Part shown: positions 30,657 to 48,564 of the stretch, one piece after another
Layout: each line of letters starts with the position of its first letter
Position numbering within the stretch: the stretch's first letter is position 1
Assembly (NCBI GenBank): GCA_943787485.1
Contig: CALSMP010000007.1
Span: forward strand, 1-64,000
Source of the DNA: an uncultured Luminiphilus sp.
GTDB lineage: Bacteria; Pseudomonadota; Gammaproteobacteria; Pseudomonadales; Halieaceae
Reading direction: 5' to 3'
DNA length: 64,000 bases
Notes under the pieces: model-generated
Seen by the model: only the letters and a program-made list of their open reading frames with translations
Databases searched by the model: none
What the model was told of the DNA's origin: nothing
Position numbers and translations under genes: made by a program

Positions 30657-31056
30657 ATTTGGCTAGCATCATACAGATTTCGCAGTGGCGCTGTAGTGCG
30701 CCGGGCGGCCGCCCCAACTCCCTTCAATCCCCAATGTAACGAGGGAATGTGTCCAGCGAAGGCAACGCCACTCCCCGTCCCTAGCTCGAGCCTAGATGAC
30801 ACAAGCTCCGAGGCCAGGGCTTGCTATCAATTTCGTTCGACGGGCACAAATCCGGCCGCCACGGCAAAGAAAATGGGATAAAACCCCCAAAAACCCACAA
30901 TATTTTTACGTGTTAAGGCGCCGAACCTAGCTGAAAAAGTATTGATTTCAAATGCTTATGTGCTACTCGCGGCGGGATGCAATTGAAAAATACCTGCGTT
31001 AAACTTTTACGTTGGCACCATGAAACTAAAAGATAAATCACACAATGGAGTTGCCC
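30657..31056. other. Divergent intergenic region between BetT and the TonB receptor
   Basis: About 400 bases with no convincing gene. It contains a perfect 12-bp palindrome GGGCGGCCGCCC at 30703-30714 and becomes AT-rich toward the receptor. I looked for cobalamin, TPP and glycine riboswitch cores and saw none. Promoters for both flanking genes must lie here, but I cannot place them with confidence. Confidence 0.5.
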
Positions 31057-33729
31057 ATGCCTTATCCCCACAATCTTAGACGCCACACGCTCGCCACAGC
31101 GGTCGGCACGGCGCTTGTACCCATGCTTGCCGCCACCCATGCACAGGCGCAGCTGGAAGAGGTCGTGGTCACCGCGACCAAGCAAGAGGCCAGCCTGCAA
31201 GACGTGCCTGTCGCGGTTTCAGCGCTGACTGAAGAGTCGCTGAACCAACGCGGCGTAACCAGTTTTAACGACTACCTGATCCAGCTGCCTAACGTATCAG
31301 CGGGCGGTGCGGGCCCCGGTCAGTCAACCATGTACATTCGGGGTATTGCCTCTACCACGCCTAACCTCACGACATCGGGTGTAGCCGGCTTGAGTCCTAA
31401 CGTGGCGCTGTATCTCGACGAACAGCCGCTGAGTCAACCAGGCCGTAACCTCGACGTGTACATTGTCGATATGAATCGTGTTGAGGTGCTCGCCGGACCT
31501 CAGGGCACGCTGTTCGGCGCAAGTTCTCAGGCAGGCGTGATTCGTTTGATCACGAACAAGCCAGATCCAACCGGCTTCTCGGGCAGCGTGAGAGCGGGTG
31601 CCTCAACCATGAAAGATGGTGAAGCTAACTACAATATCAATGCGACGGTGAATATTCCCCTAGGTGATAACTTTGCCGTCCGCGCTAGTATCTACACCGA
31701 TGAGAAGGGCGGCTACATTGATAACATCCCTGGAACCCGTTCGACGCGCGAAAGTGCGCGCTTCCGCTCGGGCAGCACGATACGCTCAAACGGTACAGCG
31801 GTGGGTTTCCGAGGTGGCTTCCAAGCGGGTGTGGACCTTAGCAACGTCAACTTCATTGATGCGAACAATGCTGCTCTAGTTGAGGAAGACTTCAACGACA
31901 CCACTTACCAAGGTGCTCGTATCAGTGCCCTTTGGAACATTAACGATAACTGGAGCCTGCAAGTTGGCGCTATGGCCCAGGAGATCGATAGCGACGGTAC
32001 GTTTTATGTCGACCCCAACCTTGACGGTGACTATGAGATCCAGCGCTTTGAGGCTGAAAATATCAAAGACGAGTACACCAATTTCAGCTGGACTTTGGAA
32101 GGCAGGTTGGGCGCATTAGACGTGCTGTATACCGGCGCCTTCACCGAACGTGAAACTGATCAGCGAGTAGATTACTCTGACTATCTATTCATCGGTCAGT
32201 ATATTCCCTACTACATCTGTGACTACTACGTTTCGTACACGACCTATGCACCAGGCGGAGTTCCCACAGGCAACTGTTACTCACCGAACTTGTACACCAC
32301 CAACAAGGTCGATAGTGAATTCCAGACCCACGAAATCCGTATAAGTACTGACCAAAGTGCGAAAGTCCGCGTCACTGCAGGCGTTTTTTACAGCGACATG
32401 GAGCTCACCGAGCAGGTGGACTTTTCTTACCCAAGCAACCAGTTAGTTGACGCTTGGGGCTCGGGTTCAGGCAATGGCTTTGGTTTTGCCGAGAACTATA
32501 ACTATCCCTACGCTGGTCAGGGCGGCTACCGACCCGGCGCAGGTCCTTACCCAGCAGACACCGTTTTCCGCAACGACATTCTTCGTACAGACGAACAGAT
32601 GGGCGTGTTCGGTGAAATCAGCTACGACCTTTCGGACAGCCTGACCATCACAGGTGGTCTGCGCTACTTCGACTATGAGGTCGACTTAGCGGGAAGCGCA
32701 AACGGCAGCTTCTATAATATGAGTGGTACCGACTACAACCGTTTTGGTACAAACATCAATGACCTGTACGACGGAGACCAGTCAATTACTTGGACTTACT
32801 CGGGAGGCTTCTTCTCCTATGAGGATGCACCCGTTTACACACCAAATAACCTACCCACGGTTAATGACCCCAACTTCAACTACAGCGAAGCCGACATAAG
32901 ACGCATTACCAACAGCGTGTTTGCGCCAGATGTAGCTGAGGATGATGGTTTTATCGGTAAGATCACCCTGTCTTGGACTCCCGATGACAACAGTCTGTAT
33001 TATCTGACGTGGTCTGAAGGATTCCGAACCGGCCTGTTGAACCGTCCCGGTGGTGCTTATCAAGCGCAGAACAATTACACGGTACCTTTTGATGTGAAGT
33101 CGGACGAGCTGACCAACCTAGAAGTAGGCTGGAAGCTGGACCTCTTCGATGGCATGTTCCGGTTTAACGGTTCAGTGTTCATGGTCGATATCGCCGATTT
33201 GCAAACAACGATCTTTGATACCAGCATTGTCAACCTGTTCTTCTCGGACAACGCGGCGGACGCAGACGTCAAGGGCCTCGAGGGCGACATTACGTGGATG
33301 GTCTCGAACAACCTGACCGTCGGTGCAGCATTCTCGTTCCTCGATACCGAGGTGACCGCGAGTAACACGCCGAGCACGGACGTAATAGTGGGTTCAGAGC
33401 TTGCTTATGCACCTAACTACCAAGGTAATCTTTGGGCCCGTTGGGAGTGGTCTATGGGCAATGGCTGGACGGCGCACATGATGCCTTCGGTTGCCTACTC
33501 TGACAGCTCCTACAGTGACATCATCTCGATCAACAGCATGGAAGTGCCAAGTTGGACAAAGGTAGATGTAACTGGCGGCGTTAGCACAGATCGATGGATG
33601 GTAGAGGCTTTTGTCACTAACCTGACTGATGAGCGCGTTGTCACGGGCGCCAACTATGTTAACGATCGTGAGCGCCTCGCTCTTGCACCGCCCACTACAC
33701 TGGGTCTACGTGCCTCGTTCAGCTTCTGA
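31057..33729 (+). CDS. TonB-dependent receptor 1, with Tyr-rich Cys-bounded segment
   Basis: 890 residues from ATG 31057, chosen because GGAG (31047-31050) sits 6 bases ahead; the ATG at 31045 has no such site. Signal peptide ends HAQAQ, followed by a TonB box-like LEEVVVTATK. The plug has DVPVAVSALTEESL, RGI and VEVLAGPQGTLFGASSQAGVIRLITNKP; the barrel ends with the C-terminal aromatic GLRASFSF. A segment at 32173-32295 has 11 Tyr in 41 residues and two Cys. Probably imports a siderophore, vitamin or organic nutrient with TonB energy; substrate unknown. A strong terminator follows and a TPR-sulfotransferase gene comes next. Confidence 0.92.
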   Translation: MPYPHNLRRHTLATAVGTALVPMLAATHAQAQLEEVVVTATKQEASLQDVPVAVSALTEESLNQRGVTSFNDYLIQLPNVSAGGAGPGQSTMYIRGIASTTPNLTTSGVAGLSPNVALYLDEQPLSQPGRNLDVYIVDMNRVEVLAGPQGTLFGASSQAGVIRLITNKPDPTGFSGSVRAGASTMKDGEANYNINATVNIPLGDNFAVRASIYTDEKGGYIDNIPGTRSTRESARFRSGSTIRSNGTAVGFRGGFQAGVDLSNVNFIDANNAALVEEDFNDTTYQGARISALWNINDNWSLQVGAMAQEIDSDGTFYVDPNLDGDYEIQRFEAENIKDEYTNFSWTLEGRLGALDVLYTGAFTERETDQRVDYSDYLFIGQYIPYYICDYYVSYTTYAPGGVPTGNCYSPNLYTTNKVDSEFQTHEIRISTDQSAKVRVTAGVFYSDMELTEQVDFSYPSNQLVDAWGSGSGNGFGFAENYNYPYAGQGGYRPGAGPYPADTVFRNDILRTDEQMGVFGEISYDLSDSLTITGGLRYFDYEVDLAGSANGSFYNMSGTDYNRFGTNINDLYDGDQSITWTYSGGFFSYEDAPVYTPNNLPTVNDPNFNYSEADIRRITNSVFAPDVAEDDGFIGKITLSWTPDDNSLYYLTWSEGFRTGLLNRPGGAYQAQNNYTVPFDVKSDELTNLEVGWKLDLFDGMFRFNGSVFMVDIADLQTTIFDTSIVNLFFSDNAADADVKGLEGDITWMVSNNLTVGAAFSFLDTEVTASNTPSTDVIVGSELAYAPNYQGNLWARWEWSMGNGWTAHMMPSVAYSDSSYSDIISINSMEVPSWTKVDVTGGVSTDRWMVEAFVTNLTDERVVTGANYVNDRERLALAPPTTLGLRASFSF

Positions 33730-33755
33730 TATAGACGTCGAACAGGCAACAACCG

Positions 33756-33779
33756 AAAGTGCCCCCGCGGGGGCACTTT
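33756..33779 (+). terminator. Rho-independent terminator after TonB receptor 1
   Basis: Perfect 24-bp palindrome built on AAAGTGCCCCC / GGGGGCACTTT, followed by TTTTAT. It lies 26 bases after the receptor stop and ends only 13 bases before the next start codon (33793). Confidence 0.9.
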
Positions 33780-33792
33780 TTATTTGTAACGG

Positions 33793-35787
33793 ATGAACCG
33801 CAAATTTATGTCTGACACCGCCCGCGCCATGGATCAACAGGAGATCCAGAAACTGATCCAACAAGGCAAGCTCCCAGATGCCCTTAGAGCTCTGGATGGC
33901 TTGGACGCTGACGATCGTAACTCGCAAATGAACCTGTACATGCGCGGTGTCTGTCTTCGGCACCTCAGGCAGTGGGCAGATGCAGAGAAAGTGCTTCACC
34001 AACTGATCGCCAAATCCCCGTCCTATGGGCGGGGATTTCAAGAGCTAGGGCATTTATACAGGGATGCAGGGCGACCACCAGAAGCAGTCGGTGCCTACGC
34101 AACCGCCTGTCATCTTAACCCGGCGCTTAAGGCCAGCTGGCAAGGTCAATATAACCTTCTCGATCACGAGCGCTCTGTGGATCGGGTGGCACAAGTAAAA
34201 GAGCGCATTGACTGGCTAGACGGCCTGCCTCCCGTGCTTTTGGCCAGCCTCGATATGCTGCACGAAGGCAAGCTGATCAAGGCGGAGCAGCTGTGCCGCC
34301 AATTCATGCAGCAAAATCCGCAGCACATTGAAGGCATGCGCCTGCTCGCTGACATTGCCATCAAGCATGGGGTACTCGAAGATGCGGAGTTCCTATTGGA
34401 AAGTGCCGTTGCGTTTGACCCCGGCCATCAACGCGCTCGCATCGACTACGTTCAAGCGCTCAGCAAGCGACAACGCTACCAACAGGCGAGCGAGGAGGCC
34501 AAAGCGCTGCTTGAAGCCAGCCCAGAAAACCCCCAATTCCAGTCGCTTTATGCGATACAGTCGATGCAACTGGGGGATTACCAAACGGCTCTCGATTTAT
34601 TTGACAGCATTCTCGAGCGTATCCCGCACGATCCGGTGACCCACGTATCAAAAGGCCACGCGCTAAAGACCGGCGGTAAAACGGCTGAAGCCGTTAGCTC
34701 GTATCAAGCGGCCATTGATGCACAGCCCATGCACTGCGACGCCTGGTACTCCCTAGCCAATCTGAAGACTTACCGGTTCGATGATGACCAGATTCGCACC
34801 ATGCTGGAGCTGGATAAAAATCCTCATCTGGCAGGGCAAGACCGGGTTTACCTGCAGTTTGCTCTCGGCAAGGCCTTCGAAGATAAGAATGCGTTTGACA
34901 AGTCCTTCTTTCACTACAGCAAAGGAAATGACATCAAGCGAACTCAAGTACAGTACCGGGCAGACGGGACCAGCCGTGAGTGCGAGGAACAAATCGCTGC
35001 CTGCACTCCTGGCACTTTTAAACAGGTATCCGGTCATGATGCCCCAGATCCGATTTTTATTGTCGGGCTGCCTAGAGCGGGATCAACGTTACTTGAGCAG
35101 ATTTTGTCCTCTCACAGCCAAATCGACGGCACGCTTGAGCTACCCAACGTGCTTTCCATAAGCGGCAAGCTTCGGCGACTTGGCCAGCGGGAGGGCAATA
35201 ACCGGTATCCGGAGATACTTAATCATCTAACGCCAGAGACACTGCGCGAGCTAGGCGAAGAATATATTCGCGATACTCAAATTCACCGCTTAGGGGCGCC
35301 TTTCTTTATCGACAAGATGCCTAACAACTTTCGTCATATTGGCCTTATTCGGCTCATGCTGCCCAATGCAAAAATCATTGACGCCCGCCGCGACCCCATG
35401 GCGTGCTGCTTCAGCGGGTTCAAGCAGTTGTTTGCCGAGGGCCAGCTTTTTAGCTATTCGCTCGATGATATCGGCCGTTATTACAAGGACTATGTGAAAT
35501 TAATGGCGCATTGGGACGAGGTCATTCCCGGCTACGTGCTTCGAGTCCAACACGAGGACGTTGTTGCCAACCTTGAGACACAGGTAACGCGTATGCTCGA
35601 TTTTTGCGGTGTGCCCTTCGAGGAGTCCTGTCTTGAGTTTCATAAAACTGAACGCAACGTCAGGACACCCTCTTCCGAGCAAGTCCGGCAACCGATTTTC
35701 TCCACCGCTTTGGAGCAATGGAAAAACTATGAGCCCTGGCTCGAGCCCTTAAAGCAGGCCCTTGGTTCTACATTGGCACCAAGATGA
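33793..35787 (+). CDS. TPR-repeat sulfotransferase 1
   Basis: 664 residues. The first ~350 are tandem TPR units (e.g. GRGFQELGHLYRDAGRPPEAVGAYATACHLNP). The C-terminal domain is a PAPS-dependent sulfotransferase: P-loop-like FIVGLPRAGSTLLEQIL (near 424) and the 3'-phosphate site AKIIDARRDPMACCFSGFKQLF, with FIDKMPNNFRHIG between. No signal peptide, so cytoplasmic. The TPR part probably docks a protein or peptide substrate. Possible starts are ATG 33793, 33808 and 33829; the receptor terminator just upstream leaves little room for a separate promoter. Confidence 0.88.
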   Translation: MNRKFMSDTARAMDQQEIQKLIQQGKLPDALRALDGLDADDRNSQMNLYMRGVCLRHLRQWADAEKVLHQLIAKSPSYGRGFQELGHLYRDAGRPPEAVGAYATACHLNPALKASWQGQYNLLDHERSVDRVAQVKERIDWLDGLPPVLLASLDMLHEGKLIKAEQLCRQFMQQNPQHIEGMRLLADIAIKHGVLEDAEFLLESAVAFDPGHQRARIDYVQALSKRQRYQQASEEAKALLEASPENPQFQSLYAIQSMQLGDYQTALDLFDSILERIPHDPVTHVSKGHALKTGGKTAEAVSSYQAAIDAQPMHCDAWYSLANLKTYRFDDDQIRTMLELDKNPHLAGQDRVYLQFALGKAFEDKNAFDKSFFHYSKGNDIKRTQVQYRADGTSRECEEQIAACTPGTFKQVSGHDAPDPIFIVGLPRAGSTLLEQILSSHSQIDGTLELPNVLSISGKLRRLGQREGNNRYPEILNHLTPETLRELGEEYIRDTQIHRLGAPFFIDKMPNNFRHIGLIRLMLPNAKIIDARRDPMACCFSGFKQLFAEGQLFSYSLDDIGRYYKDYVKLMAHWDEVIPGYVLRVQHEDVVANLETQVTRMLDFCGVPFEESCLEFHKTERNVRTPSSEQVRQPIFSTALEQWKNYEPWLEPLKQALGSTLAPR

Positions 35788-35855
35788 GCTTCGATCCTGC
35801 GCACAATCGAGGCTTTTACTTACTTGTCCGCTGAAAGCTCGTGATCTAATTCGGT

Positions 35856-37811
35856 ATGAACATGCCCAGCCGAACACTGTCCGCCCTCTCCGATATCGAC
35901 GGCTTACGCGCGCTGGCAGTCAGTGCCGTAGTGCTTTTTCATCTCGATATTACCTACTTTCATGGTGGATTTTTGGGGGTCGACATCTTCTTTGTCGTGT
36001 CGGGCTTTCTCATCACTGGCCTTATCGAAGATAAGTTAGCAGTCGATAACTTTCGGTTTAGGGACTTTTATGCACGGCGAATCCGCCGGCTTTTCCCCGC
36101 CATTTACGCGACAGTCGGAGCGACTCTGTTGGCAAGCTGGCTGCTACTTCAACCCAGTCTGCTGCAGGGCGTTGCTCAATCAGGCGCAAGTGCGATCCTG
36201 CATGCCGCAAATATTTTCTTTTTTTTGGAAGCCGGATATTGGGATGTCAGCAGTTCGTTCAAGCCTCTTCTGCACTTGTGGTCGCTCGGTGTCGAAGAAC
36301 AGTTTTACCTGTTATGGCCGCTACTAGTGACGCTCCTTTTTGCGCTGAGCGCTCCAATCTATGTGTCGACACTGGCTGGGATTCTAGGGCTAAGTCTCAC
36401 CGGCTGGCTTGCCTACTCACTCAGCAACGAACCCGCTGCTTTTTACCTCCTACCTTTCAGAGTCTGGCAGTTTTGCGCGGGGGCTATGGCGCTAAGGATC
36501 TGGAGGCAATACAGAGGTTCGCTCTTTGTTACCCAAGTGCTCCGCTCTACCGGACTAGCTCTGTGTGTCTTCGGCATCATCACTATTGATGCGGGCTCAG
36601 CATCGGCTGGTTGGAGCGCAGTCATACCAACGACAGGGGCAGCACTTGTTCTAATCGCCGCTGACAGTCGTGAACCCAGCCCCTGGCTACGCCACCCCGC
36701 TGTACAGTGGGTCGGAACCCGATCGTTTGCCATCTACCTCACCCACTGGCCGATCATCACCTTGTACAAAACCACAACCCTGAGCTCACTCAACACCCTG
36801 ACACAATTTCTTCTCGGAATATTTAGCCTCTTTACCGCCGCCTTGCTGCATCGCTATGTAGAGCAACGCTTTTACCAGCGGAATACCGCCGCTCGTTGGG
36901 ATCGTTCAACCGCTATGATTTTAGCGAACGGGCTCGCGTTGCTGGCAATTCTGGTTTTGGTTGCAAAATTTCCCGACGAACTCAGCACCCGGAAGGTATT
37001 GCTTACGGCTGAAGTAATTGAAGCCTATAAGCAGAATAGATTTCAGCGAGTAGCCGGCAGTTGCCGAATTGACCAACTCCAGAACAAAAACCGCTGCCCC
37101 GCAAATCTAGTCTCACCCATACTCGTTATCGGGAACTCTCATGAACCCGATGGCTTTCATATTATGTCAGCCGCATTAGCGGGTGGACGCGAGCATACGC
37201 TAGTTAACTTTGGCTCAATCAATGGTTGTGACACGCTGAGAGCTATTGATAACTGGGCGCAGAGCGACAACCCCGTCTGTCAGGGTCGCATCGAAGCACT
37301 TGAAAAATCGATAAATACCATTCCATGGCAGGCGGTGATCCTGAGCAATCGAAGACCCGCTGGAGGGTGGTCAACAGGGCCGCTATCAGCTGCCGTGCTA
37401 GAGCGGAAGAAAGCGTTGATCAACATCATCGCCACCATCAAAGCTAATCAGCCTGCCACCAAGGTCATCGTTTTTGGCGACTACCTAAGTACGGTTCATG
37501 ACTGCGCGCTGTTGATCAACACGTATGAGGATTTCGCCGCCTGCAGCCGGCCCCACCTGCTGGAGCCGCCACCCTGGGGAGGATTTCCCGAGGGTCCCTT
37601 CGGGGCGGACCTTGCTGAGATAAGCGATGATTTTTTTGACAAAATGGCGCTACTTTGCGCGAGTGAAGAAATCGATAGCTGCGAAGTCATCACACCCGAA
37701 GGTCATCCGATAGCTATGGATCGACATCATCTGACCTACGAGTTTGCCACCTATATAGGGCAAAAACTGAAGGCCGAAAATCCTGACTGGCTTAAAGGAC
37801 TGCGAGATTAG
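35856..37811 (+). CDS. AT3-SGNH fusion acyltransferase (OafA/YrhL-like)
   Basis: 651 residues. The N-terminal ~390 residues form the acyltransferase-3 membrane domain: DIDGLRALAVSAVVLFHLD, GGFLGVDIFFVVSGFLIT, FYARRIRRLFPA and LLHLWSLGVEEQFYLLWP. The C-terminal ~230 residues are a periplasmic SGNH domain with VIGNSHEPDG (Ser present, but GNSH rather than GDSH) and the Asp-His end MDRHHLT. Such enzymes O-acetylate surface glycans such as LPS O-antigen or exopolysaccharide. Start ATG 35856 or 35862. It lies 68 bases after sulfotransferase 1 and may be co-transcribed. Confidence 0.88.
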   Translation: MNMPSRTLSALSDIDGLRALAVSAVVLFHLDITYFHGGFLGVDIFFVVSGFLITGLIEDKLAVDNFRFRDFYARRIRRLFPAIYATVGATLLASWLLLQPSLLQGVAQSGASAILHAANIFFFLEAGYWDVSSSFKPLLHLWSLGVEEQFYLLWPLLVTLLFALSAPIYVSTLAGILGLSLTGWLAYSLSNEPAAFYLLPFRVWQFCAGAMALRIWRQYRGSLFVTQVLRSTGLALCVFGIITIDAGSASAGWSAVIPTTGAALVLIAADSREPSPWLRHPAVQWVGTRSFAIYLTHWPIITLYKTTTLSSLNTLTQFLLGIFSLFTAALLHRYVEQRFYQRNTAARWDRSTAMILANGLALLAILVLVAKFPDELSTRKVLLTAEVIEAYKQNRFQRVAGSCRIDQLQNKNRCPANLVSPILVIGNSHEPDGFHIMSAALAGGREHTLVNFGSINGCDTLRAIDNWAQSDNPVCQGRIEALEKSINTIPWQAVILSNRRPAGGWSTGPLSAAVLERKKALINIIATIKANQPATKVIVFGDYLSTVHDCALLINTYEDFAACSRPHLLEPPPWGGFPEGPFGADLAEISDDFFDKMALLCASEEIDSCEVITPEGHPIAMDRHHLTYEFATYIGQKLKAENPDWLKGLRD

Positions 37812-37825
37812 CCACGCTCCTGCTA

Positions 37826-38719
37826 TTAGTTTTTGCGGACTTGCTCCAGGATGGACGAAAAATCGCGCTGGCCGTTACCTTTTTCCTGATGCTCTTGGTA
37901 GAGCGACAGCGCGAGTTTGCCCATCGCGTTCGCTATCTCGGAAGCATCAGCCACCTCATCAGCAAGACCGAGATCCTTCACCATTAAGTCAACCATAAAG
38001 CCAGGTTGGTAGTTATTGCTGGAAGGCACCCCATCCATTACCTGTGGCCACGGGTTGTATACCTGCAGCGACCAGTTATTCCCTGAACTGGCTTTCATAA
38101 TGGTCGATAACACCGCGGGATCTAGGCCATTGGCCGCCCCCATTGATAGCGCCTCACAGGTCCCAATCATGTGGATGGCCAGCAGCATGTTGTTGGCAGC
38201 CTTCGCTACCTGCCCTGCCCCCGCGGGACCCGCATGAAAGATTTTTTCCGGGCTGCCCATCGCTTCGAGGATTGGGCGAGCTCGTTCAAAAGCGTCCGCA
38301 CTGCCACCGCACATAAAGGCCAAGGTGCCTGCCTGCGCTGCCGCAACCCCGCCGGAAACGGGGGTATCCATGAAGTCAATGCCACGGTCTTTGGCAACGC
38401 CACCCACCTCCCTTGCGGTTTGCGAATCGATCGTGCTGGCGTCAAGCACCAACACCCCTTGGGGCAGCTGCGTTAACAATCCCTGCTCATCCTCGTAGAC
38501 CAATTTCACGTGCTTGCCCGCGGGAAGCATGCTTATGACCGCATCCACACCTTGACAGGCATGGGCGGCAGATTCGCACGCCACGCCGCCCGCGGCGGTG
38601 ACATCCGCCAGCGCGTCGGCTGAAAGATCAAATATCTGAACGGTGTGCCCAGCCTTGAGCAGGTTTTTGGCCATGGGCCCACCCATGTTGCCAAGTCCAA
38701 TGAATGCGATAACGGCCAT
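37826..38719 (-). CDS. mmsB: 3-hydroxyisobutyrate dehydrogenase
   Basis: 297 residues. N-terminal NAD loop FIGLGNMGGPMAKNLLKAGH, then DASTIDSQTAREV, substrate-binding DTPVSGGVAAAQAGTL, and catalytic Lys in GAGQVAKAANNMLLA; all standard for this family. The enzyme oxidises 3-hydroxyisobutyrate to methylmalonate semialdehyde in valine breakdown. Last gene of the minus-strand operon that starts at 41780, 15 bases after the HIBCH gene. Confidence 0.93.
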   Translation of the reverse strand: MAVIAFIGLGNMGGPMAKNLLKAGHTVQIFDLSADALADVTAAGGVACESAAHACQGVDAVISMLPAGKHVKLVYEDEQGLLTQLPQGVLVLDASTIDSQTAREVGGVAKDRGIDFMDTPVSGGVAAAQAGTLAFMCGGSADAFERARPILEAMGSPEKIFHAGPAGAGQVAKAANNMLLAIHMIGTCEALSMGAANGLDPAVLSTIMKASSGNNWSLQVYNPWPQVMDGVPSSNNYQPGFMVDLMVKDLGLADEVADASEIANAMGKLALSLYQEHQEKGNGQRDFSSILEQVRKN

Positions 38720-38734
38720 TCGGTTCGCTCCAGA

Positions 38735-39835
38735 TTAAGCAGGCAAGTTAAGGGAGGGCATCTCTTTGGGTGTCTCAAAAAACCCATCGAGAACATCGTC
38801 GGGGACATCCGCCACCTGCAGGTAAGACCACTGGGGATTCCGATCTTTATCGACAAGCAGCGCGCGCACTCCCTCGGAAAATTCAGGATGACGCATAATA
38901 TTGGTCCCTAAAATCAGTTCGCTTTGAAACACCTGTTCAAGGGTTCGGCCCGCTGATTCGTTCAATTGACGAAATATCCAGGAGGCCGCCAGCTTGGATC
39001 CATGGGCGAAACCATTGCAGGCCTTGCCTATCCAAGACTCCTCATCCCGGCTATCAAGCAGCCTGTTCGAGATCTCCTTTAGATCATTACCCGCCATGAG
39101 GGCATTGATGGTATCGAGAGCCGGCTCCAACTGCGGGGCAGGCAAGTCGGTGGTAGCGGGCGTCGCAAGAGCCTCATCTACAAGCTCCGCATTTGTCGTT
39201 GCGTCGTCAGTCCAAAGAGTCTCTGCGAGGCGATCAAGCACCGCCTGTTTCTGTTCGTGAGCCAAAAAAATGGTGCCAAGCCCACAAAACAGGGCGTCAG
39301 CGGCGTTGATATGCGCCGCCGTCAGTGCAAGAAATCGCCCTACCTGACCGGGCATTTTATTAAGGAACCAGCTGCCGCCCACGTCAGGAAACAAGGCGAT
39401 GGTGACTTCAGGCATGCCGATCCGTGTTCGCTCGCTCACCACCCGGTGGCTGCAACCAGCAAGAATCCCTAAACCCCCGCCCATGACCACACCGTGACCC
39501 CAGCAAACGACCGGCTTAGGACAAGTGTGCAGCAGGTAATTCATCCGGTATTCCCGGGCGAAAAAATTCTCGGCGTAATCGCAGGGACCCCCAGGATTTT
39601 CGATACAAGAATTTCTTAGTGCCTGCACATCGCCACCCGCGCAAAATGCCTTTTCGCCGCTACCATCAATAAAAATAGCGGCAATGCTCGGGTCATCTCG
39701 CCACGCTTCGAGTGCCTCTGTCATTAACTCAACCATGTCGCGGGTCAGGGAGTTCAGTGTTTTTGGCGCGTCCAGGGTCAAATGCCCTACTCGCTTATCG
39801 CCCTGCCCAATGATTTGCTGATGTACGCCTGTCAT
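38735..39835 (-). CDS. 3-hydroxyisobutyryl-CoA hydrolase
   Basis: 366 residues from ATG 39835, which overlaps the stop of the hydratase gene (TAATG) and has GGAAGA ahead; a GTG at 39850 would give 5 more residues. Crotonase fold with CAGGDVQALR, GHGVVMGGGLGILAGCSHRV and MPEVTIALFPDVGGSWFLNKMPG, whose Glu-x-Asp placement marks HIBCH-type hydrolases rather than hydratases. It frees 3-hydroxyisobutyrate from its CoA ester in valine catabolism. Confidence 0.9.
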   Translation of the reverse strand: MTGVHQQIIGQGDKRVGHLTLDAPKTLNSLTRDMVELMTEALEAWRDDPSIAAIFIDGSGEKAFCAGGDVQALRNSCIENPGGPCDYAENFFAREYRMNYLLHTCPKPVVCWGHGVVMGGGLGILAGCSHRVVSERTRIGMPEVTIALFPDVGGSWFLNKMPGQVGRFLALTAAHINAADALFCGLGTIFLAHEQKQAVLDRLAETLWTDDATTNAELVDEALATPATTDLPAPQLEPALDTINALMAGNDLKEISNRLLDSRDEESWIGKACNGFAHGSKLAASWIFRQLNESAGRTLEQVFQSELILGTNIMRHPEFSEGVRALLVDKDRNPQWSYLQVADVPDDVLDGFFETPKEMPSLNLPA

Positions 39836-40623: not shown

Positions 40624-41780
40624 TTAATCACCTCTAAGGCGCCGTCCATCATAAGTTTACGGCCAATGATGACGCGCATAATTTCGTTAGTCCCCTCAAG
40701 AATTTGGTGTACCCGGGTATCGCGCACATAGCGCTCGACCGGGTACTCCTTGATGTAGCCATAGCCACCAAATAGTTGAAGCGCCTGATTGCACACCGAG
40801 AAACCGACGTCGGTGGCAAATCGTTTGGCCATGGCACAGTAGGTAGTGGCCTGGGGGTCTCGGTTATCAAGCTTGCTCGCGGCGAGACGAATCATTTGTC
40901 GGGCTGCCACCAGCTCGGTGGCCATATCGGCGAGCCTGAATTGCGTGTTTTGAAAATCTGCGATCGGCGTATCAAACTGTTTACGATCACTCACATAAGC
41001 AACAGCATCCTCGAGCGCCTGCTGCGCAGTCCCCACCGAGCACGTCGCAATATTGATGCGACCGCCGTCAAGGCCCTCCATGGCTATCGCGAAGCCCTGC
41101 CCTTCTTCACCCAAGCGATGACTCACAGGAACGCAGACATTATCGAAGGACACCATGCGGGTAGGCTGGGCGTTCCAACCCATCTTTTCTTCTTTCTTGC
41201 CGTAGCTAACGCCCTCCGCGTCCGCCGGAATAAGCAAGGCCGTGATTCCCTTGTGACCTTCACCACCGGTCCGAGTCATCACCACAAGCACGTCGGTATC
41301 ACCGGCCCCTGAGATAAAAACCTTACTTCCGGAGACAATGTACTGGTCGCCCTCGAGGACAGCTCTTGTTTTCAGGCCCGCCGCATCAGAGCCAGCACCT
41401 GGCTCGGTTAAACAGTAGGACGCCAGCTTTTCTCCCGAGACCAGCGCGGGACACCATTCGTCAATCACGCCCTGCTGACAGTACTTGCCAACCATAGATG
41501 TCGCCATATTGTGGATCGTTAAAAACGCTGCCGTGGTGGTGCAACCCCGTGCCAACTCCTCAACGATAAGACTGGCATCAAGACGGGTCATGCCAAGGCC
41601 ACCCGCGCGCTCTGGCGTGTACATTCCCATGAACCCGAGGTCCCCCGCCGCCTTCAGCGTGGCCTTGGGGAAAATCGCCTCGGCATCCCAGCGCGCGGCG
41701 TGGGGTGCCAGCTCACCGAGTGAAAACGCCCTTGCGCTATCCACAAAAAATTGCTGCTGATCATTAAGTTCAAAATTCAC
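40620..41780 (-). CDS. Acyl-CoA dehydrogenase, probably isobutyryl-CoA dehydrogenase
   Basis: 386 residues. FAD/acyl-CoA dehydrogenase signatures: YCLTEPGAGSDAAGLKT, FISGAGDTDVLVVMTRT, MGWNAQPTRMVSFDNV, and the C-terminal QLFGGYGYIKEYPVERYVRDTRVHQILEGTNEIMR. The Glu of EGTNEI lies at the catalytic position used by short/branched-chain members. Gene order with ECH, HIBCH and MmsB points to isobutyryl-CoA (valine) as substrate. First gene of the operon. Confidence 0.9.
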   Translation of the reverse strand: MNFELNDQQQFFVDSARAFSLGELAPHAARWDAEAIFPKATLKAAGDLGFMGMYTPERAGGLGMTRLDASLIVEELARGCTTTAAFLTIHNMATSMVGKYCQQGVIDEWCPALVSGEKLASYCLTEPGAGSDAAGLKTRAVLEGDQYIVSGSKVFISGAGDTDVLVVMTRTGGEGHKGITALLIPADAEGVSYGKKEEKMGWNAQPTRMVSFDNVCVPVSHRLGEEGQGFAIAMEGLDGGRINIATCSVGTAQQALEDAVAYVSDRKQFDTPIADFQNTQFRLADMATELVAARQMIRLAASKLDNRDPQATTYCAMAKRFATDVGFSVCNQALQLFGGYGYIKEYPVERYVRDTRVHQILEGTNEIMRVIIGRKLMMDGALEVIK

Positions 41781-42119
41781 GGGAAGCTCGATAAATCGTC
41801 TTGTTGAAGGAAGTCATGAGTGCTCCATTGTAGCGTCACTCCGCTTTACAGTCGCTCTGCTTTTCAGCCGCTAAATTCAGGCCACAACCCGATCTAGCCC
41901 GACGGCATCAAGCAGACCTGCTGGGCATTGCACTACACAGTTCTGTCGGTTTGCGTGGTGATGAGCGGGAAATTACCTCACCCCGCTGGAACATTACCTT
42001 ACCCAACCGGGGTAAGGGCACCCGTAGTCAGGATCATCGGCGGAGCGTTACCATTTGGCGACCCATGAAAATCTGACACGTCACGTTTACGTCGTCCTTT
42101 TAGGCATTCGAGGCCCAAC
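41781..42119. other. Divergent regulatory region between valine operon and aldehyde dehydrogenase
   Basis: 339 bases with no credible gene. Contains a perfect inverted repeat at 41997-42017 (listed separately) and a related half-site about 21 bases upstream. Confidence 0.6.
41972..42017. promoter_or_regulatory. Candidate operator: palindrome plus upstream half-site
   Basis: CCTTACCC-AACCG-GGGTAAGG at 41997-42017 is an 8-5-8 perfect inverted repeat. ATTACCT occurs at 41993-41999 within it and again at 41972-41978, spaced 21 bases, two helical turns. The site is about 100 bases before the aldehyde dehydrogenase start and 217 before the valine operon start. A regulator site is inferred; a small RNA hairpin is an alternative, though there is no T tract. 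Confidence 0.5.
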
Positions 42120-43541
42120 ATGACAACAGCACACGCCGATTCTGCAAACGACCCTGAAGGCTTTATTCGCGCTTTGGTTGAGCGCTCGCGCATCGCGCAG
42201 GAACAGATAGCTGACTACACCCAGGAACAAGTCGACGCCCTGATCCGCGCGATGGTGTGGTCCGTGGCTCAGCCGGGCGTTGCGGAAGAAATCGCCCAAT
42301 TCACGGTGGATGAGACTCAGCTTGGTAACTACGAGGGTAAGTTTTTAAAAATCCAGCGTAAAACCCGTGCCACCCTCGCGGATATCATTAATGACAAATC
42401 GGTGGGCGTTATCGAAGAGCTGCCTGAGCGGCAGATCAGGATTATTGCCAAACCCCTGGGCGTTATCGGTGCGTTGGCGCCCTCGACCAATCCCGAGGCA
42501 ACGCCTGTCATCAAGGCAATACATGCGATCAAAGGCCGAAACTCCATCATCATTGCCCCGCACCCTCGGGCCAAACTGACAAACAAGAAGATTTGCGACC
42601 TGATGCGAGCGGCGCTCAAAAAAATGGGGGCTCCGGAAGATCTGGTTATTGCCATTGAGACCCCGTCCCTCGAAACCACCCAAGAGCTGATGCGCCAGTG
42701 TGACAGGGTCCTCGCGACGGGCGGCGGCGCCATGGTGACCGCGGCCTATTCCAGTGGCACGCCTGCGCTAGGCGTCGGCGTGGGCAACGCGGTCATCACC
42801 GTTGATGAAACCGCGGATCTCGATGCGGCGGCCGAGAAGATACGCCTGTCTAAAACGCTGGATCTGGCGGCGTCATGCTCATCGGACAACTCAGTCATCC
42901 TTATGGATTCTATCTACGATGACATGCTCAAAAAACTGCAAGAAAAAGGCGGTTATGTGTGTTCGGCCGACGAAAAAGCCAAACTCCGTGCCGCCCTTTG
43001 GGACGATGAGCTTCACATTAATACCCAGATGGTGGCCCAGCCCGCCGGCCGGATTGCGGCCATGGCAGGGTTTAATCCGCCTCCGGATACTCAATTTTTT
43101 ATTGTGTTAGAAGATGGCTGGGGGCCTGAGCACCCCTTCTCGGGTGAAAAGCTGTCGGTGATCATGGCGCTCTATCGCGCACGGGATATCGATCACGCCA
43201 TTGAGCTTACACGCCATATTCAAGCCTATCAGGGGCAAGGACACTCCTGCGGCATTTACTCAAATAGTGATGCCAACATCATGAGGCTGGCTCATCAGAC
43301 GCGAACCTCCCGGGTTATGGTCAATCAGCCCCAATCTGCGTCAAACAGCGGCAACCTGTGGAACGGGATGCGCCAAACCTTTTCTCTGGGCTGTGGATCT
43401 TGGGGAGGTAACGGCACCAACAACAACATTTCTTGGCGGGATTTGATCAATGAGACCTGGGTATCGATGCCGCTGCCCCAAGAAAAGACGCTGCCCTCGG
43501 ACGATGAGTTGTTTGGGTCGATTCCGGACCAGCTGTCCTAG
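42120..43541 (+). CDS. Acylating aldehyde dehydrogenase, SauS-like (sulfoacetaldehyde dehydrogenase?)
   Basis: 473 residues of the CoA-acylating ALDH group (EutE/AdhE N-domain type), not classical ALDH: RIIAKPLGVIGALAPSTNPEATPVIKAI, IIIAPHPRAKLTNKKI, VLATGGGAMVTAAYSSGTPALGVGVGN, and the catalytic Cys in LAASCSSDNSVILMD. The CSS-(D/E)-NS form, and the C-terminal GCGSWGGNGTNNNISWRDLIN, resemble sulfoacetaldehyde dehydrogenase (acylating), SauS, which makes sulfoacetyl-CoA. This substrate call is from memory and uncertain; other short aldehydes are possible. Followed by a LuxR regulator 90 bases downstream on the same strand. Confidence 0.75.
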   Translation: MTTAHADSANDPEGFIRALVERSRIAQEQIADYTQEQVDALIRAMVWSVAQPGVAEEIAQFTVDETQLGNYEGKFLKIQRKTRATLADIINDKSVGVIEELPERQIRIIAKPLGVIGALAPSTNPEATPVIKAIHAIKGRNSIIIAPHPRAKLTNKKICDLMRAALKKMGAPEDLVIAIETPSLETTQELMRQCDRVLATGGGAMVTAAYSSGTPALGVGVGNAVITVDETADLDAAAEKIRLSKTLDLAASCSSDNSVILMDSIYDDMLKKLQEKGGYVCSADEKAKLRAALWDDELHINTQMVAQPAGRIAAMAGFNPPPDTQFFIVLEDGWGPEHPFSGEKLSVIMALYRARDIDHAIELTRHIQAYQGQGHSCGIYSNSDANIMRLAHQTRTSRVMVNQPQSASNSGNLWNGMRQTFSLGCGSWGGNGTNNNISWRDLINETWVSMPLPQEKTLPSDDELFGSIPDQLS

Positions 43542-43631
43542 CGCAGCTTCCCCGGATGCCGCAATAGGCCGCTGCATCGTGAGCAACATCGCGGCACCAT
43601 TTCTGCCATGAGTCCGTGGTAATCTGCGGCC

Positions 43632-44480
43632 ATGACACCGATTCCATCCTTTCCCCACCGTTTAGCTGAAGCGCTCAAACAGGTGGGATCGACTGAGTTT
43701 CCTCGGGCTATTTGCTCTGCCGTGGGTGAGCTGGTCCGTGCAGAAGATATGAGTTTGCTGCTGTTCAGAGCAGGGCAACTGCCCACCGTTGAGTTCAACA
43801 CGCCGCGTGCAGGTGGGGACACGAGCTCGCTCAACAGCTACATCCAGCGCGCTTTCCTGCTGGACCCCTATTACCGCGCAGCGACCGTCGATAATCGGTA
43901 TGGCGTTTTTCGCCTCAAGGCCCTCGCTCCTCATGGTTTTAAAAGCAGCGAGTACTACCGCACCTGGTATCACAACAACGGCCTGAGCGACGAATGTGGA
44001 CTGCTGGTGGCGCTGGAGGAGGGGTTTGTAAACCTGTCCCTCGGCATGCTTAAAAGGGGGCAGGGCTTTAGTGAGCGCTCACTATTAACACTTCGCGAGT
44101 TTTTCCCCCTGATCGAAACTATCATTCAGCGCCATTGGGCGGAGGAGGCCAGCCAGCAACAAGGGGACCCCAGTCTTCGTGCGCGTATGGAGTCCTCGCT
44201 GGCTGCCTTTGGTAGCTCCATATTGACCCGTCGCGAACAGCAAATCACCGGCATGGTGCTGCTCGGAAACAGCACGCGGCTGATCGCCGAAAAGCTGGCG
44301 ATATCCACCGAGACCGTCAAGCTGCATCGCAAGCATGCCTATGCCAAGCTCGATATCTCGAGTCAGGCAGAGCTGTTCAGCTTGTTTATGCAAGCACTGA
44401 GCCACAGTGAAGGCGGGTCCGACGTAGACCCGTTGGTCGCGTTCCACAGTCCATCCACGGGGCGCACAACGCAGAGCTAA
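43632..44480 (+). CDS. LuxR-family transcriptional regulator
   Basis: 282 residues. The C-terminal ~65 residues are a LuxR/FixJ helix-turn-helix: LTRREQQITGMVLLGNSTRLIAEKLAISTETVKLHRKHAYAKLDISSQAEL. The N-terminal ~190 residues, with LDPYYRAA, KSSEYYRTWYHNNGLSDECGLLV and LSLGMLKRGQGFSERSL, form a sensor-like domain seen in marine LuxR regulators that are not quorum-sensing acyl-HSL receptors. Its stop overlaps the sulfotransferase start (TAATG), so it is translated with it and likely controls this locus. Confidence 0.85.
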   Translation: MTPIPSFPHRLAEALKQVGSTEFPRAICSAVGELVRAEDMSLLLFRAGQLPTVEFNTPRAGGDTSSLNSYIQRAFLLDPYYRAATVDNRYGVFRLKALAPHGFKSSEYYRTWYHNNGLSDECGLLVALEEGFVNLSLGMLKRGQGFSERSLLTLREFFPLIETIIQRHWAEEASQQQGDPSLRARMESSLAAFGSSILTRREQQITGMVLLGNSTRLIAEKLAISTETVKLHRKHAYAKLDISSQAELFSLFMQALSHSEGGSDVDPLVAFHSPSTGRTTQS

Positions 44481-46051
44481 TGAGTAAAGTCATCACAAAT
44501 CTGCTAGCCGAAGGCTTTGATGCGCTTAATCGCAATGACATTACGAGGGCGGGGCAGTGCTGTAAACAGGCGCTGGATGTAGACCCGCAGAACCCGAACG
44601 CCCATTTTTTGGTAGGCCTAGTTGCGCTTGAGGCCGCTGATAGACCCAACGCACACCGCGCGTTCAAATCAGTCGTCAAACTCGACCCCAACCACGCTGC
44701 CGCCTGGTCTCAACTGGCGCGCCTCAACGCCAGTGAGGGGCGGGTGAAGCTGGCGGAACAGGCGCTGCTTGAAACCCGCCGCTTAAAACCCACCGATCCG
44801 GCCGTTCTCGACACGATCGGCACCGTTCTAACCCAGTTAGGCGAATATGACGCCGCAAAAGCGTTTTTCGCCCGGGCCACCACCGCCGCCCCCAATACGC
44901 CGCATTACATGATGAATTTGGCTAATAATTTGGTCTTTTTGGGGGAGATCGATACCGCAAAGGCTATTTTTAGCGATGTTATCGATATTCAGCCCAACAC
45001 ACCCCAAGCGCACTGGGGCTTTTCGAGCGCGGTCAAAGCGGACTCGAGCGCCCATATTGATCAAATGCGGAGCTTGCTGGCACGCAACGAGAACAATCCT
45101 CGGGGACTCGGGTTTCTCTACTACGCACTGGGAAAAGAGCTGGAAGATACCAAAGCCTGGCCAGAAGCTTTCGACGCCTTCGCCGCGGGGGCTGCCGCCA
45201 GACGTCAGACGGTGGCCTTCGATGAGCCAACCGAACAAGTCATGTTTGATGCCCTCAAGGCGACCTATACGCGAGACTGGCTAGCGCAGCGCGCCGCGGG
45301 CAACCCTGACGCTTCACCAATCTTTGTGCTGGGGCAACCTCGCACCGGCACCACGCTGATCGAGCGGATTATCACCAGCCATTCCCGGGTCCACTCCGCC
45401 GGGGAGCTACAGCAATTTGGCCTCGCCATCCGCCGTCTGGCAAAAATTCAGGACCCGCGGCGCTACAGTCCCGAACTGCTGGAGGCGGCTGCCGCGCTCA
45501 ATCCGGCCGAGCTGGGTACGATGTACCTGCAATCCTCGACGCGAATGCGCGGTAAATTGCCGCGATTTGTCGATAAATTGCCGGTAAATTACCTGAACAT
45601 TGGATTGATTCTAGCGGCGCTACCCAATGCCAAGATCGTTCACCTGGTGCGTGGGCCCATGGATGCCTGCTTTGCCAGCTTCAAACAACTTTTTGCGGAT
45701 GCCTATCTGCATTCCTACGATCAGGAGGAAATGGCGCGCCATCATATTCGTTACCGGGATTTGATGGCCCACTGGCACAGGGAATTTCCCGGTAGGATCA
45801 TTGATATCAGCTACGAGGCAACGGCAGCAGACCTGGAGCCCAACGCCCAACGACTGATTGCCGAGCTCGAGCTGGAGTGGGAGGACGACTGTCTGCATTT
45901 CCACGAGTCCAGCGCGGGCGTGGCAACCGCCAGTGCCGTACAGGTGCGTGAGCCCGCACACACGCGGTCGATTGGCCGCTGGCGTCGCTACGAGGAACAA
46001 CTGGCCCCTATGCGCGCTATTCTCGAGGCCGCGGGGGTTCCACTCGAGTGA
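44480..46051 (+). CDS. TPR-repeat sulfotransferase 2
   Basis: 523 residues. TPR units fill the first ~230 (e.g. AGQCCKQALDVDPQNPNAHFLVGLVAL). The sulfotransferase domain has FVLGQPRTGTTLIERIITSHSR (PAPS 5'-site, near 284), FVDKLPVNYLNIGLILAALPNAKIVHLVRGPMDACFASFKQLF (3'-site) and the terminal RSIGRWRRYEEQLAPM. Same architecture as sulfotransferase 1 (33793), fewer TPRs. Cytoplasmic, no signal. Coupled by TAATG to the LuxR regulator and 143 bases ahead of TonB receptor 2. Confidence 0.88.
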   Translation: MSKVITNLLAEGFDALNRNDITRAGQCCKQALDVDPQNPNAHFLVGLVALEAADRPNAHRAFKSVVKLDPNHAAAWSQLARLNASEGRVKLAEQALLETRRLKPTDPAVLDTIGTVLTQLGEYDAAKAFFARATTAAPNTPHYMMNLANNLVFLGEIDTAKAIFSDVIDIQPNTPQAHWGFSSAVKADSSAHIDQMRSLLARNENNPRGLGFLYYALGKELEDTKAWPEAFDAFAAGAAARRQTVAFDEPTEQVMFDALKATYTRDWLAQRAAGNPDASPIFVLGQPRTGTTLIERIITSHSRVHSAGELQQFGLAIRRLAKIQDPRRYSPELLEAAAALNPAELGTMYLQSSTRMRGKLPRFVDKLPVNYLNIGLILAALPNAKIVHLVRGPMDACFASFKQLFADAYLHSYDQEEMARHHIRYRDLMAHWHREFPGRIIDISYEATAADLEPNAQRLIAELELEWEDDCLHFHESSAGVATASAVQVREPAHTRSIGRWRRYEEQLAPMRAILEAAGVPLE

Positions 46052-46194
46052 TTCACCGCTCAACTTGCCTCACGGGGACCGCACTTTTCCGCCTTATTAA
46101 CCCTCAAGAGGTCTGTACAAATTGATCGTGCGATAGCAAGCTAGCATCGTGTGCCCAACGCTTTATTTTGTTTATTGACTACAGGAGCCCGTCA

Positions 46195-48564
46195 ATGAGC
46201 CACCGTCCCCTATCCGTTCGTCATCTAGCACTTCCCGTCGCGGTATCTTCAGCGCTTGCCGCCAGCCACATTCAGGCACAAATGCTTGAGGAGGTCGTGG
46301 TAACCGCCACCAAACGTGAGCAAAGTGTGATGGATGTTCCTTTGGCCATCACGGCGCTTTCTGGTCAGTTCGTGATGGATGCCAACCTCAACGATGTGAA
46401 GGACTTGATTGCCTACACGCCGGGGGTGAGTGGCAATTCGCAGGACTCCTATATTGATGCCGTCGCGGTTCGTGGTGTGCGCTACCAGGACTTTGGCGTG
46501 GGAGGCGACCCCTCCACCGGCTTCTTCAAAAACGACCTCTATGAAGGCCGAAACGGCAGCGCGGTGACCAGTCTCTATGACATCGATCGGGTCGAAATTC
46601 TTCGCGGCCCACAAGGCTTCCTGTTTGGCCGTAACGCCATCGCCGGTGCGTTCAGTGTCTACACCGCCAAGGCTGACCCCGATGGTCAAAGCGGGTATAT
46701 CCAACTCGATATTGGTGAGCGCGGACATGCGGTGGGAGAGGGCGCTATCAACATTCCTCTAGGTGATAACCTCGCTACCCGCATTGCTGGCTATTACTCA
46801 CAAGAGGACGGATTCTCCCGAAACGTTTTCTCGGGCCGCGATGAAATTGAACACGAGAAGTGGGCGCTTCGCTGGTCGACTAAATACGAGACTGATCGGC
46901 TGACGGTCGACGGCGTCGTTGAGTATGAAGAGCGGCGTCAGAGTGGTTCTATGTACCGCGCGATTGATACCGGGGATATCTGGGATACCTTTGATGAGTA
47001 CATTACGTCTGACACCACCCTGCGCGGCACGGACAAGGAGTTGGACTCTGATATTGGATCCGGTGAACAAGACGACGCTGACATACTGACTTTAGGACTG
47101 TTCATTAACTACGACCTGGGCTTCGCCACCTTGACCTCGAACACGGGCTATAAGGATCACGACTACTTCTACAAAGAAGACTATGACGGCACACCGCTCA
47201 ACGTAAATAACTTCCAATTCAACCAAAGCGGCGAGTACTTCCAGCAAGAAATTCGCTTAACGTCTAACGATGATGGCCCCCTCGGTTGGTACGTGGGAGG
47301 AAGTTACTACCAGGAAGATCTAGACGCGGGCTTCGTCGCTATCGGCTCTGAAGACCTGATGTGTCAGTACTATTTGAACTCCTACTATGACGCTTACTAT
47401 CAGGCCTATTATGGCTACAGTTACAACCCGCAGTTTGAAGGCTGTGCCGATGTTCCCTACTACTACGATTTCTACTCGTCCGCTGATGGCAACCTCACCG
47501 AAACATCACAGATCAAGGGCAAGTACACGGGTTGGGCGGCCTACGTAAACACCGACTTTGACATCACCGAGAACTGGAACGTTGAGTTCGGTGTGCGCTA
47601 CACCGAGGACGACAAAGACTTCGCCATACTGGTACCTGAACCCGAAAGTTATCTTGGGCCCTACTTCACTTACGGTTTTGCGACAGCGGAGTTCATCGAG
47701 GACTCGGACAGCTGGGATGATCTGACCCTACGCGTGGGCACGACTTACACCATGGGTGAAGCGTTGTTTTTCGCGAGTTACACCCAAGGCTTCAAGTCCG
47801 GTGGCTATGGAAGCTTCTGGATTGAGGACGCCAACGGTGGAGTGCCCGCTTACGAAACGGGTATACGTCAGGGCGATGGCTACCTGCCCGGCAAATTCAA
47901 CCCTGAGACCGTCGACTCCTATGAAATCGGGATGAAGACTTCCTATTTGGATGGGCGCGGTAATTTCGACATCACCTTTTTCATGTATGACTACGAGGAC
48001 ATGCAGGTCATTAACTACGTGGAGGTCGAGGAGACCGGCGCGTTTGCAGGCCGAGTGCTCAACGTCGGCCAAACCGAAGGCTACGGTGTCGAGGCAGCAA
48101 CGACTATTGCCCTTAGCGACAACTTCACGCTGTATCTGTCTGCAGGCTATCTCGACACCGAGGCGACCGGCATCCAGAACATCTGCGGCTTGGAAGATGT
48201 CAACGGCTGTGAGGGCAGTCCGCTATTCTGGGCGCCCGAGATCACCGCGGCAGGGCGACTTGATGCCAACTTCCCGATGGGTAATGGGGCCATCACCGGC
48301 GCCTTTGAATTCTCCTACGAAGATGAGCGCGGCGGCGGTTGGGAAGCCAACCCTGAAGGCTATATTGATGCCTACACCGTGGCGAACCTGCGGATCGGCT
48401 ATGAAACCGACAGCTGGTATGTCAGTGCTTATGCGGAAAACGTCTTTGATGAGTTCACCTGGGATGGCTACAACGCCAACGGCGGTATTATCCCGTCACA
48501 CTTCTTCGGACCCATGCGGCCACGTACCTTTGGTGTCATGCTGGGGATGAACTGGGGCAACTAA
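46195..48564 (+). CDS. TonB-dependent receptor 2, with very Tyr-rich loop
   Basis: 789 residues from ATG 46195, preceded by AGGAG 7 bases ahead; ATG 46168 lacks one. Signal peptide ends HIQAQ, then [12 protein letters not shown]. Plug landmarks: [50 protein letters not shown]-like. C-terminal strand [10 protein letters not shown]. At 47362-47475, 38 residues contain 14 Tyr in doublets and triplets with two Cys and several acidic residues, likely an extracellular loop. Probable TonB-driven uptake of an unknown ligand. Belongs to the same group as receptor 1 by layout. Confidence 0.92.
   Translation: [789 protein letters not shown]

Follow-up and report, generated by a model that had tools for sequence, protein, structure and literature searches.

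Conserved pairing of TonB receptors with TPR-sulfotransferases in marine Proteobacteria suggests possible chemical tagging of a tyrosine-rich receptor loop

Bacterial protein tyrosine sulfation is described, in passages of PMC9372746 and PMC5144950, for the enzyme RaxST and its substrate RaxX, and bacterial genes of the tyrosylprotein sulfotransferase (TPST) kind are called sparsely distributed there. RaxST of Xanthomonas is a cytoplasmic sulfotransferase related to animal TPST, which meets its substrate in the cytoplasm before export (passages of PMC9372746). The fusion of tetratricopeptide repeats (TPR) to a sulfotransferase domain appears in a section of PMC554113 for Mesorhizobium loti and Xanthomonas axonopodis, as a listing that gives neither a receptor partner nor a function. 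Here we describe a 64,000-nt window of DNA from an uncultured Luminiphilus sp. (contig CALSMP010000007.1; G000:C7:1-64000 in our numbering, from a genome of 2.67 Mb in 23 contigs), in which two TonB-dependent receptors, TBDR1 and TBDR2, each adjoin a TPR-sulfotransferase, ST1 and ST2. TPST, RaxST, O-GlcNAc transferase (OGT), TonB receptors and the TPR-sulfotransferase architecture are already known; new here is a TPR-type relative of TPST tied to a receptor with a tyrosine-packed loop, a predicted and unproven variant of bacterial protein-tyrosine sulfation.

The enzymes of the window resemble RaxST, as that enzyme is described, in their relation to animal TPST and in their presumed cytoplasmic action before export, and differ in having a long TPR superhelix, a TonB receptor as partner and no peptide gene within the pair. 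TPST1, TPST2 and the tick TPST (8w5z) are their best solved relatives by both sequence and fold, with the active-site Arg, Glu, Lys and Ser conserved; compared with these, the bacterial enzymes carry an added TPR domain, show no membrane anchor, would work in the cytoplasm rather than the Golgi and reach ~24% identity in the fold match. OGT and SPINDLY likewise join a TPR superhelix to a protein-modifying catalytic domain; OGT transfers a sugar, and its catalytic domain is unrelated to that of sulfotransferases. On the receptor side, TBDR1 shares the siderophore receptor fold of FyuA, FptA and FhuA at 11-16% identity, and the receptors described here are set apart from those three by their Tyr-packed loops L4/L5 and their sulfotransferase partner. 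In part of PMC10040529, clusters for a TonB receptor, a BCCT transporter, a sulfotransferase and MarR are among those found together with halotolerance in six strains, adjacency not being stated in that part; of the papers that searches of the open-licence PMC library brought up, none has the pairing in its title or abstract opening. The two pairs are made up as follows.

31057..33729, + strand: TBDR1, TonB-dependent receptor of a clade found with TPR-sulfotransferases (Plug E 2e-15, barrel E 9e-29)
33793..35787, + strand: ST1, TPR repeats and a C-terminal TPST-like sulfotransferase domain (Pfam, Sulfotransfer_3 E 3e-52)
44480..46051, + strand: ST2, TPR-sulfotransferase upstream of TBDR2 (Pfam TPR repeats, Sulfotransfer_3 E 3e-44)
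46195..48564, + strand: TBDR2, TonB-dependent receptor from another linked clade, distinct from that of TBDR1 (Plug E 3e-14; trees)

All four genes lie where an earlier note on this DNA had placed them. The TBDR1 frame spans 31045-33729 on the + strand, with a possible start at 31045 and an ATG at 31057 that gives a signal-peptide-like N-terminus by eye; the TBDR2 frame spans 46168-48564 on the + strand, with an ATG at 46195 and, by eye, a signal peptide. The partners are separated by 63 bp (TBDR1-ST1) and 0.12-0.14 kb (ST2-TBDR2), and the enzyme-then-receptor order of the second pair recurs in L076, L085 and L090. ST1 and ST2 are 31% identical over 524 aa, and TBDR1 and TBDR2 can be aligned in pieces only (best 35% over 235 aa) and fall into separate clades on trees, so these are different pairs; duplication of a single locus is ruled out, as the earlier note had also held.

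We then asked how often such neighbours occur among relatives, a count that the earlier note had proposed, and the outcome spoke for the pairing. The chance test covered the complete genomes G035, G036 and G041, taking sulfotransferase frames of 500-800 aa and a same-strand Plug domain within 4.5 kb: 8 of 10 frames had such a neighbour, versus a mean of 0.45 and a maximum of 4 in 20,000 random placements, and other sulfotransferases of these genomes (one 851-aa frame included) had none in 10. Of the two misses, one (G041:3072916, L088) is a convergent pair; in the other (G036:108693) the partners lie further apart, and the enzyme (L086) lacks the catalytic Lys. For ST1-type relatives, nine enzymes served as queries over named genomes; at least 585 relatives were confirmed and the best 80 of them, ranked by enzyme similarity alone, were kept, with genes taken from simple open reading frame (ORF) calls and the upstream receptor sought in six frames. 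In 78 of these 80 loci the gene immediately preceding the enzyme, in the same orientation, encodes a TonB receptor, with a median gap of 73 bp; the figure holds for close relatives of ST1, the 80 being the best of those confirmed and partly orthologous. They range from Halieaceae, Porticoccaceae, Arenicella and Woeseia to Hyphomonas, Maricaulis, Erythrobacter, Novosphingobium and Sphingobium. In one exception (L181) the enzyme begins 65 bases from a contig end, and in the other (L164) the enzyme is preceded by RNase R and SpoU genes and followed by a BCCT gene.

The reverse search, with TBDR1 against 61 genomes of the family, yielded 44 loci at >=190 bits among the best matches listed, and 41 of these have a sulfotransferase within 3.5 kb. 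The remaining three meet contig ends: L256 shows, by eye, the start of a sulfotransferase-like frame, and in L290 and L291 the receptor itself is cut. In the Halieaceae stretches analysed that hold sulfotransferases, 50 of the 57 enzymes of >=440 aa are accompanied by a receptor no more than 3.5 kb away, whatever its strand; some of these loci entered the set through a nearby receptor match. For four of the seven enzymes without one (L089, L100, L266, L267), the stretch contains no receptor at all. Adjacency is kept in several arrangements, namely receptor-enzyme, enzyme-receptor, convergent, or with one or two genes between. Both window pairs thus belong to conserved gene partnerships, beyond chance, and the receptor and the TPR-sulfotransferase of a pair are almost certainly linked in function. 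A third pair of the same genome, L062 (G000:C11:30000-44000), has both genes in pieces, through stops or frameshifts; its partners may be decaying together, though the breaks could also be assembly errors.

The enzymes resemble protein-tyrosine sulfotransferases most closely. With the catalytic domain alone as query, protein-tyrosine sulfotransferases make up 7 of the 9 solved relatives found for ST1 and all 4 found for ST2 (E up to 0.01), the best being 8w5z in both cases (E 2.5e-9 and 5.2e-9, respectively). The PAPS-binding (3'-phosphoadenosine 5'-phosphosulfate) 5'-PSB motif is present with its conserved Arg (PRAGST / PRTGTT). Across 16 diverse TPR-sulfotransferases, in ST2 numbering, R288 (the 5'-PSB Arg), E309 and S485 (the 3' Ser) are invariant and K366 is kept in at least 90%; the ST1 counterparts R428, E449, K508 and S627 are invariant in 39 rows. 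The Glu sits in the place of the TPST catalytic base, and the Lys and Ser are presumably in the roles assigned to the active-site Lys and Ser of TPST2; small-molecule sulfotransferases (SULTs) use a His as base. By the 5'-PSB Arg, the Glu accompanied by Lys and Ser, and the closest solved relatives, the enzymes thus have the features of TPSTs.

An AlphaFold2 model of ST1 (pLDDT 89) was compared with solved structures by Foldseek, in which the TPR part matches OGT and the first sulfotransferase is the tick enzyme 8w5z, at rank 49 (E 1.3e-6, 24% identity). The superhelix is like that of OGT and the catalytic domain is Sulfotransfer_3; ST1 may work like OGT without being a member of that class, and by analogy the likeness of the TPR part to a protein-modifying enzyme would count for a protein substrate. 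No signal peptide or other export signal was seen in ST1 by eye, and the genome encodes an APS kinase, so that PAPS can be made.

Many linked receptors carry a patch of tyrosines on the side predicted to face the outside of the cell. TBDR1 and TBDR2 both contain a Plug domain; the Pfam barrel is found in TBDR1 only, TBDR2 giving no Pfam barrel match at E 0.001 and matching TonB receptor models below cut-off. The AlphaFold2 model of TBDR1 (pLDDT 86) has 22 barrel strands by our count, and its best Foldseek match is FyuA (E 6e-55). A cluster of tyrosines at residues 373-412 lies between model strands 354-372 and 413-430 and, from the strand count and the topology of TonB receptors, is predicted to be the extracellular loop L4. 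TBDR2 and its three kin have their Tyr-rich loop at L5, not L4. The two stretches are:

32170..32292, + strand: Tyr-rich loop L4 of TBDR1 with the leading Asp372 (residues 372-412), candidate sulfation site (placed between model strands)
47344..47493, + strand: Tyr-rich loop of TBDR2; its 50 residues include 14 Tyr and occupy the L5 position, not L4 (placed by alignment to TBDR1)

We compared the maximal number of Tyr per 30 aa between linked and unlinked receptors, after dropping duplicates, receptors below 550 aa and five receptors with a sulfotransferase only on the other strand. The median is 7 in 31 linked receptors versus 4 in 46 unlinked controls (P 5e-11, a value that ignores kinship), the controls coming from G000 and G035 with one from G036 (L086, where a sulfotransferase lies two genes away). 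Closer unlinked relatives came from 20 regions hand-picked from the TBDR1 search as lacking a sulfotransferase (one of them, L289, is a 3-kb contig whose neighbours are not visible); 21 receptors from 19 of these regions hold 3-6 Tyr per 30 aa, and the receptor of the twentieth (L273) is in pieces.

The excess lies mainly in two loops. An alignment of 88 hand-picked representative receptors, 46 linked (counting L088, with its enzyme on the opposite strand) and 42 unlinked, gives 5.8 Tyr in L4 per linked receptor versus 0.64 per unlinked one, and 3.4 versus 0.9 in L5, the other loops differing by less than one Tyr on average. As a share of composition, Tyr makes up 17.8% of L4 in linked and 2.6% in unlinked receptors, 10.1% and 3.5% of L5, and 3.4% of the remaining loops in both sets alike; in the L4 loops of the linked receptors of this alignment, Trp, Phe, Asp and Glu show no enrichment. 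Among 46 rows of TBDR1 kin, Y373, Y376 and Y386 are present in 46/46, an invariance that spans Alpha- and Gammaproteobacteria, D372 in 42/46 and C388 and C407 in 44/46. An Asp just before the Tyr is named in a passage of PMC9372746 as a feature of most metazoan TPST substrates.

On the receptor tree, linkage needs four changes. Tyr counts per 30 aa are 6 or more in every row of the large clade (37 rows), 8-11 in the clade of TBDR2, 4-6 in a small clade and 4 in L061; two linked clades, separate from each other, thus show the Tyr loop clearly, a third shows it weakly and the fourth does not have it. Pairs from other families of the class hold 9 (L300), 7 (L301), 8 (L302) and 6 (L293).

Taken with the conserved pairing, the Tyr patch suggests that the enzyme may chemically tag its receptor. 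The earlier note had proposed that the sulfotransferases could modify a receptor, and the TPST-like catalytic domains, together with the Tyr-rich L4/L5 loops of most partners, lend this part of its proposal indirect support. We somewhat favour a mechanism in which the cytoplasmic TPR-sulfotransferase sulfates loop tyrosines of its partner before export. With no export signal seen, the enzyme would meet the receptor as an unfolded cytoplasmic precursor. It would remain in the cytoplasm and grip this precursor along the TPR superhelix, which would give specificity for the partner receptor, and, with PAPS as donor, would sulfate tyrosines in a single long loop at the surface (L4 for TBDR1, L5 for TBDR2). 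Sulfation would precede secretion and outer-membrane insertion, and the resulting anionic aromatic loop could bind or gate the ligand at the cell surface. Adjacency, the TPST-like catalytic domain, the enrichment of loop tyrosines and the place of the loop in the predicted structure are what the data show; we infer sulfation, its timing and the ligand from them.

For the TBDR1 type, the ligand would be a quaternary-ammonium or similar zwitterionic solute, because a BCCT transporter is encoded next door; we put this forward tentatively, at somewhat less than an even chance. The two neighbouring genes that accompany the pairs in the window are:

28596..30656, - strand: BetT-like transporter of the BCCT family, transcribed away from TBDR1 and the third gene of the conserved set (BCCT E 8e-180)
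43632..44480, + strand: LuxR-type regulator (GerE HTH), whose stop codon overlaps the start of ST2

The BCCT gene scores 624 bits with the BetT model, below its cut-off of 695. A BCCT-family transporter is found, on either side and strand, in 52 of the best 80 TBDR1-type loci and in none of 20 unlinked control regions; NCBIfam scores point to a choline or betaine type for these transporters, below the model cut-offs except in L196. This fits the link to nutrient uptake that the earlier note had envisaged.

Several observations weigh against sulfation of the loop. The P values ignore kinship, and the independent linked clades number only about four. Some linked receptors, L061 (own genome, with a 465-aa sulfotransferase), L088 and L071_12270, hold only 4-5 Tyr per 30 aa, as do receptors divergent from their sulfotransferases, with 4 in L303 and 5 in L295 and L296. 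Conversely, L120 (G000:C5:223067), in the same genome as the window, has 7 Tyr per 30 aa with no sulfotransferase hit near, the sole clear unlinked case there. Tyr is also not the only enriched residue, L4 being richer in Lys (0.9 vs 0.2%) and Cys (2.7 vs 1.0%) and L5 slightly so in Trp (1.2 vs 0.7%). An acidic residue at -1 of the loop Tyr is only mildly commoner (21% in type A, 12-18% elsewhere, 9% in controls), and we rejected acidic context as a strong signature. Finally, some enzymes lack a receptor: the 10-kb stretch around L292, an enzyme with 48% identity to ST1, contains none, nor do the stretches of L089, L100, L266, L267, L294 and L297-L299, and of 29 top-ranking loci outside the family but within the class, only 5 have a receptor piece within 1.5 kb. 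A linkage of all TPR-sulfotransferases to receptors is thus rejected, on the class-wide 5/29 and on L089, L100, L266, L267 and L292.

Note that arrays of TPR-sulfotransferase genes, four in L295 and five in L296, stand close to a ~1000-aa receptor of a different type. This receptor has no Tyr-rich loop, and its best Tyr window resembles that of L061.

The alternative that survives best, though we regard it as unlikely, is that the sulfotransferase sulfonates an imported small molecule, for use, trapping or detoxification, and that the Tyr-rich loop merely binds this ligand. An enzyme without an export signal by eye, sitting with uptake genes and accompanied by BCCT in 52 of the best 80 loci, would suit such a role, and aromatic loops could bind cations; however, its catalytic domain is nearest to protein-tyrosine sulfotransferases with a Glu at the base position, it carries a large TPR superhelix like that of OGT, and neither Trp nor Phe is enriched in L4. 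It is quite improbable, in our estimate, that the loop is an unmodified ligand cage while the enzyme acts on a different target of the same regulon, either another protein or a polymer of the cell envelope. The invariant tyrosines and two conserved cysteines would also suit a rigid binding loop, as would the Tyr-rich, unlinked L120 and the linked receptors without a loop, but linked clades that are separate from one another have Tyr-rich loops at different positions (L4 and L5), and no such loop was seen in near unlinked relatives.

We consider it very unlikely that the substrate is a secreted, RaxX-like sulfated peptide, with the receptor a mere neighbour or re-importing the peptide. This was the other half of the proposal in the earlier note, and RaxST is indeed a known bacterial tyrosine sulfotransferase (passage of PMC9372746), but no peptide gene fits between the partners, because the gaps are 63 bp and 0.12-0.14 kb in the window and 73 bp at the median of 78 loci, and no exporter (RaxAB) is found among the ten window proteins scanned. 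A RaxX-like gene inside the pairs is thus ruled out; small ORFs further out and elsewhere in the genome were not sought. That adjacency reflects chance, or shared ancestry without function, is extremely unlikely: receptors are numerous (32 Plug hits in this genome) and the 80 loci are close, partly orthologous relatives, but the random placements gave 0.45 where 8 of 10 were observed, and adjacency is kept across gene orders, strands, and Alpha- and Gammaproteobacteria.

Other genes accompany the pairs in part of the loci. A LuxR gene precedes the enzyme also in L090, with an unscanned 274-aa gene at that position in L076, and a MarR regulator adjoins the sulfotransferase in L200 (Henriciella) and L210 (Hyphomonas). 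A third locus type, type C (14 loci, L250-L255 and L257-L264), combines enzyme and receptor with an uncharacterised protein family of ~305 aa, which aligns in 13 rows at 66% mean column identity; two of its members were scanned and matched neither Pfam nor NCBIfam. Type C loci partly add a gene of ~190-230 aa, which in L250 is an aspartyl/asparaginyl beta-hydroxylase and in L251, L253 and L255 gives weak LpxO matches; the frame taken at this position in L254 has no Pfam match. Counts per 30 aa in type C receptors are 6-11 Tyr, in most cases with no Cys.

Two further genes of the window were considered as fixed members of the sets and rejected, as no gene of the same size and strand stands at their place in the L068 and L076 maps: an OafA-like acyltransferase (35856-37811) and a SauS-like dehydrogenase (42120-43541). 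The latter, upstream of the LuxR-ST2-TBDR2 set, is an aldehyde dehydrogenase near the acylating sulfoacetaldehyde dehydrogenase SauS (510 bits, cut-off 600). Beyond TBDR2, a 15-base tandem repeat of 4.7 copies (49349-49417) lies at the 5' end of a minus-strand ORF for an M43-type metalloprotease.

Extended from the window to its relatives, tyrosine sulfation of the receptor leads to a broader proposal, to which we give just under an even chance. In many marine Alpha- and Gammaproteobacteria, a TPR-type enzyme encoded beside an outer-membrane nutrient receptor would sulfate tyrosines in an extracellular loop that the receptor dedicates to this purpose, an arrangement that would have arisen with at least two receptor clades and would place sulfotyrosine in the ligand site; the TBDR1 solute, probably a quaternary-ammonium compound, would be handed to BCCT, and a variant would add an aspartyl/asparaginyl hydroxylase-like enzyme. 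If this is true, tyrosine sulfation would be a common modification of marine outer-membrane transport proteins, for which the enzyme, the substrate loop and the residues can be named. The pairs could also be a source of bacterial enzymes with which to produce sulfotyrosine proteins, and they could explain part of the many TPR-sulfotransferases in marine genomes.

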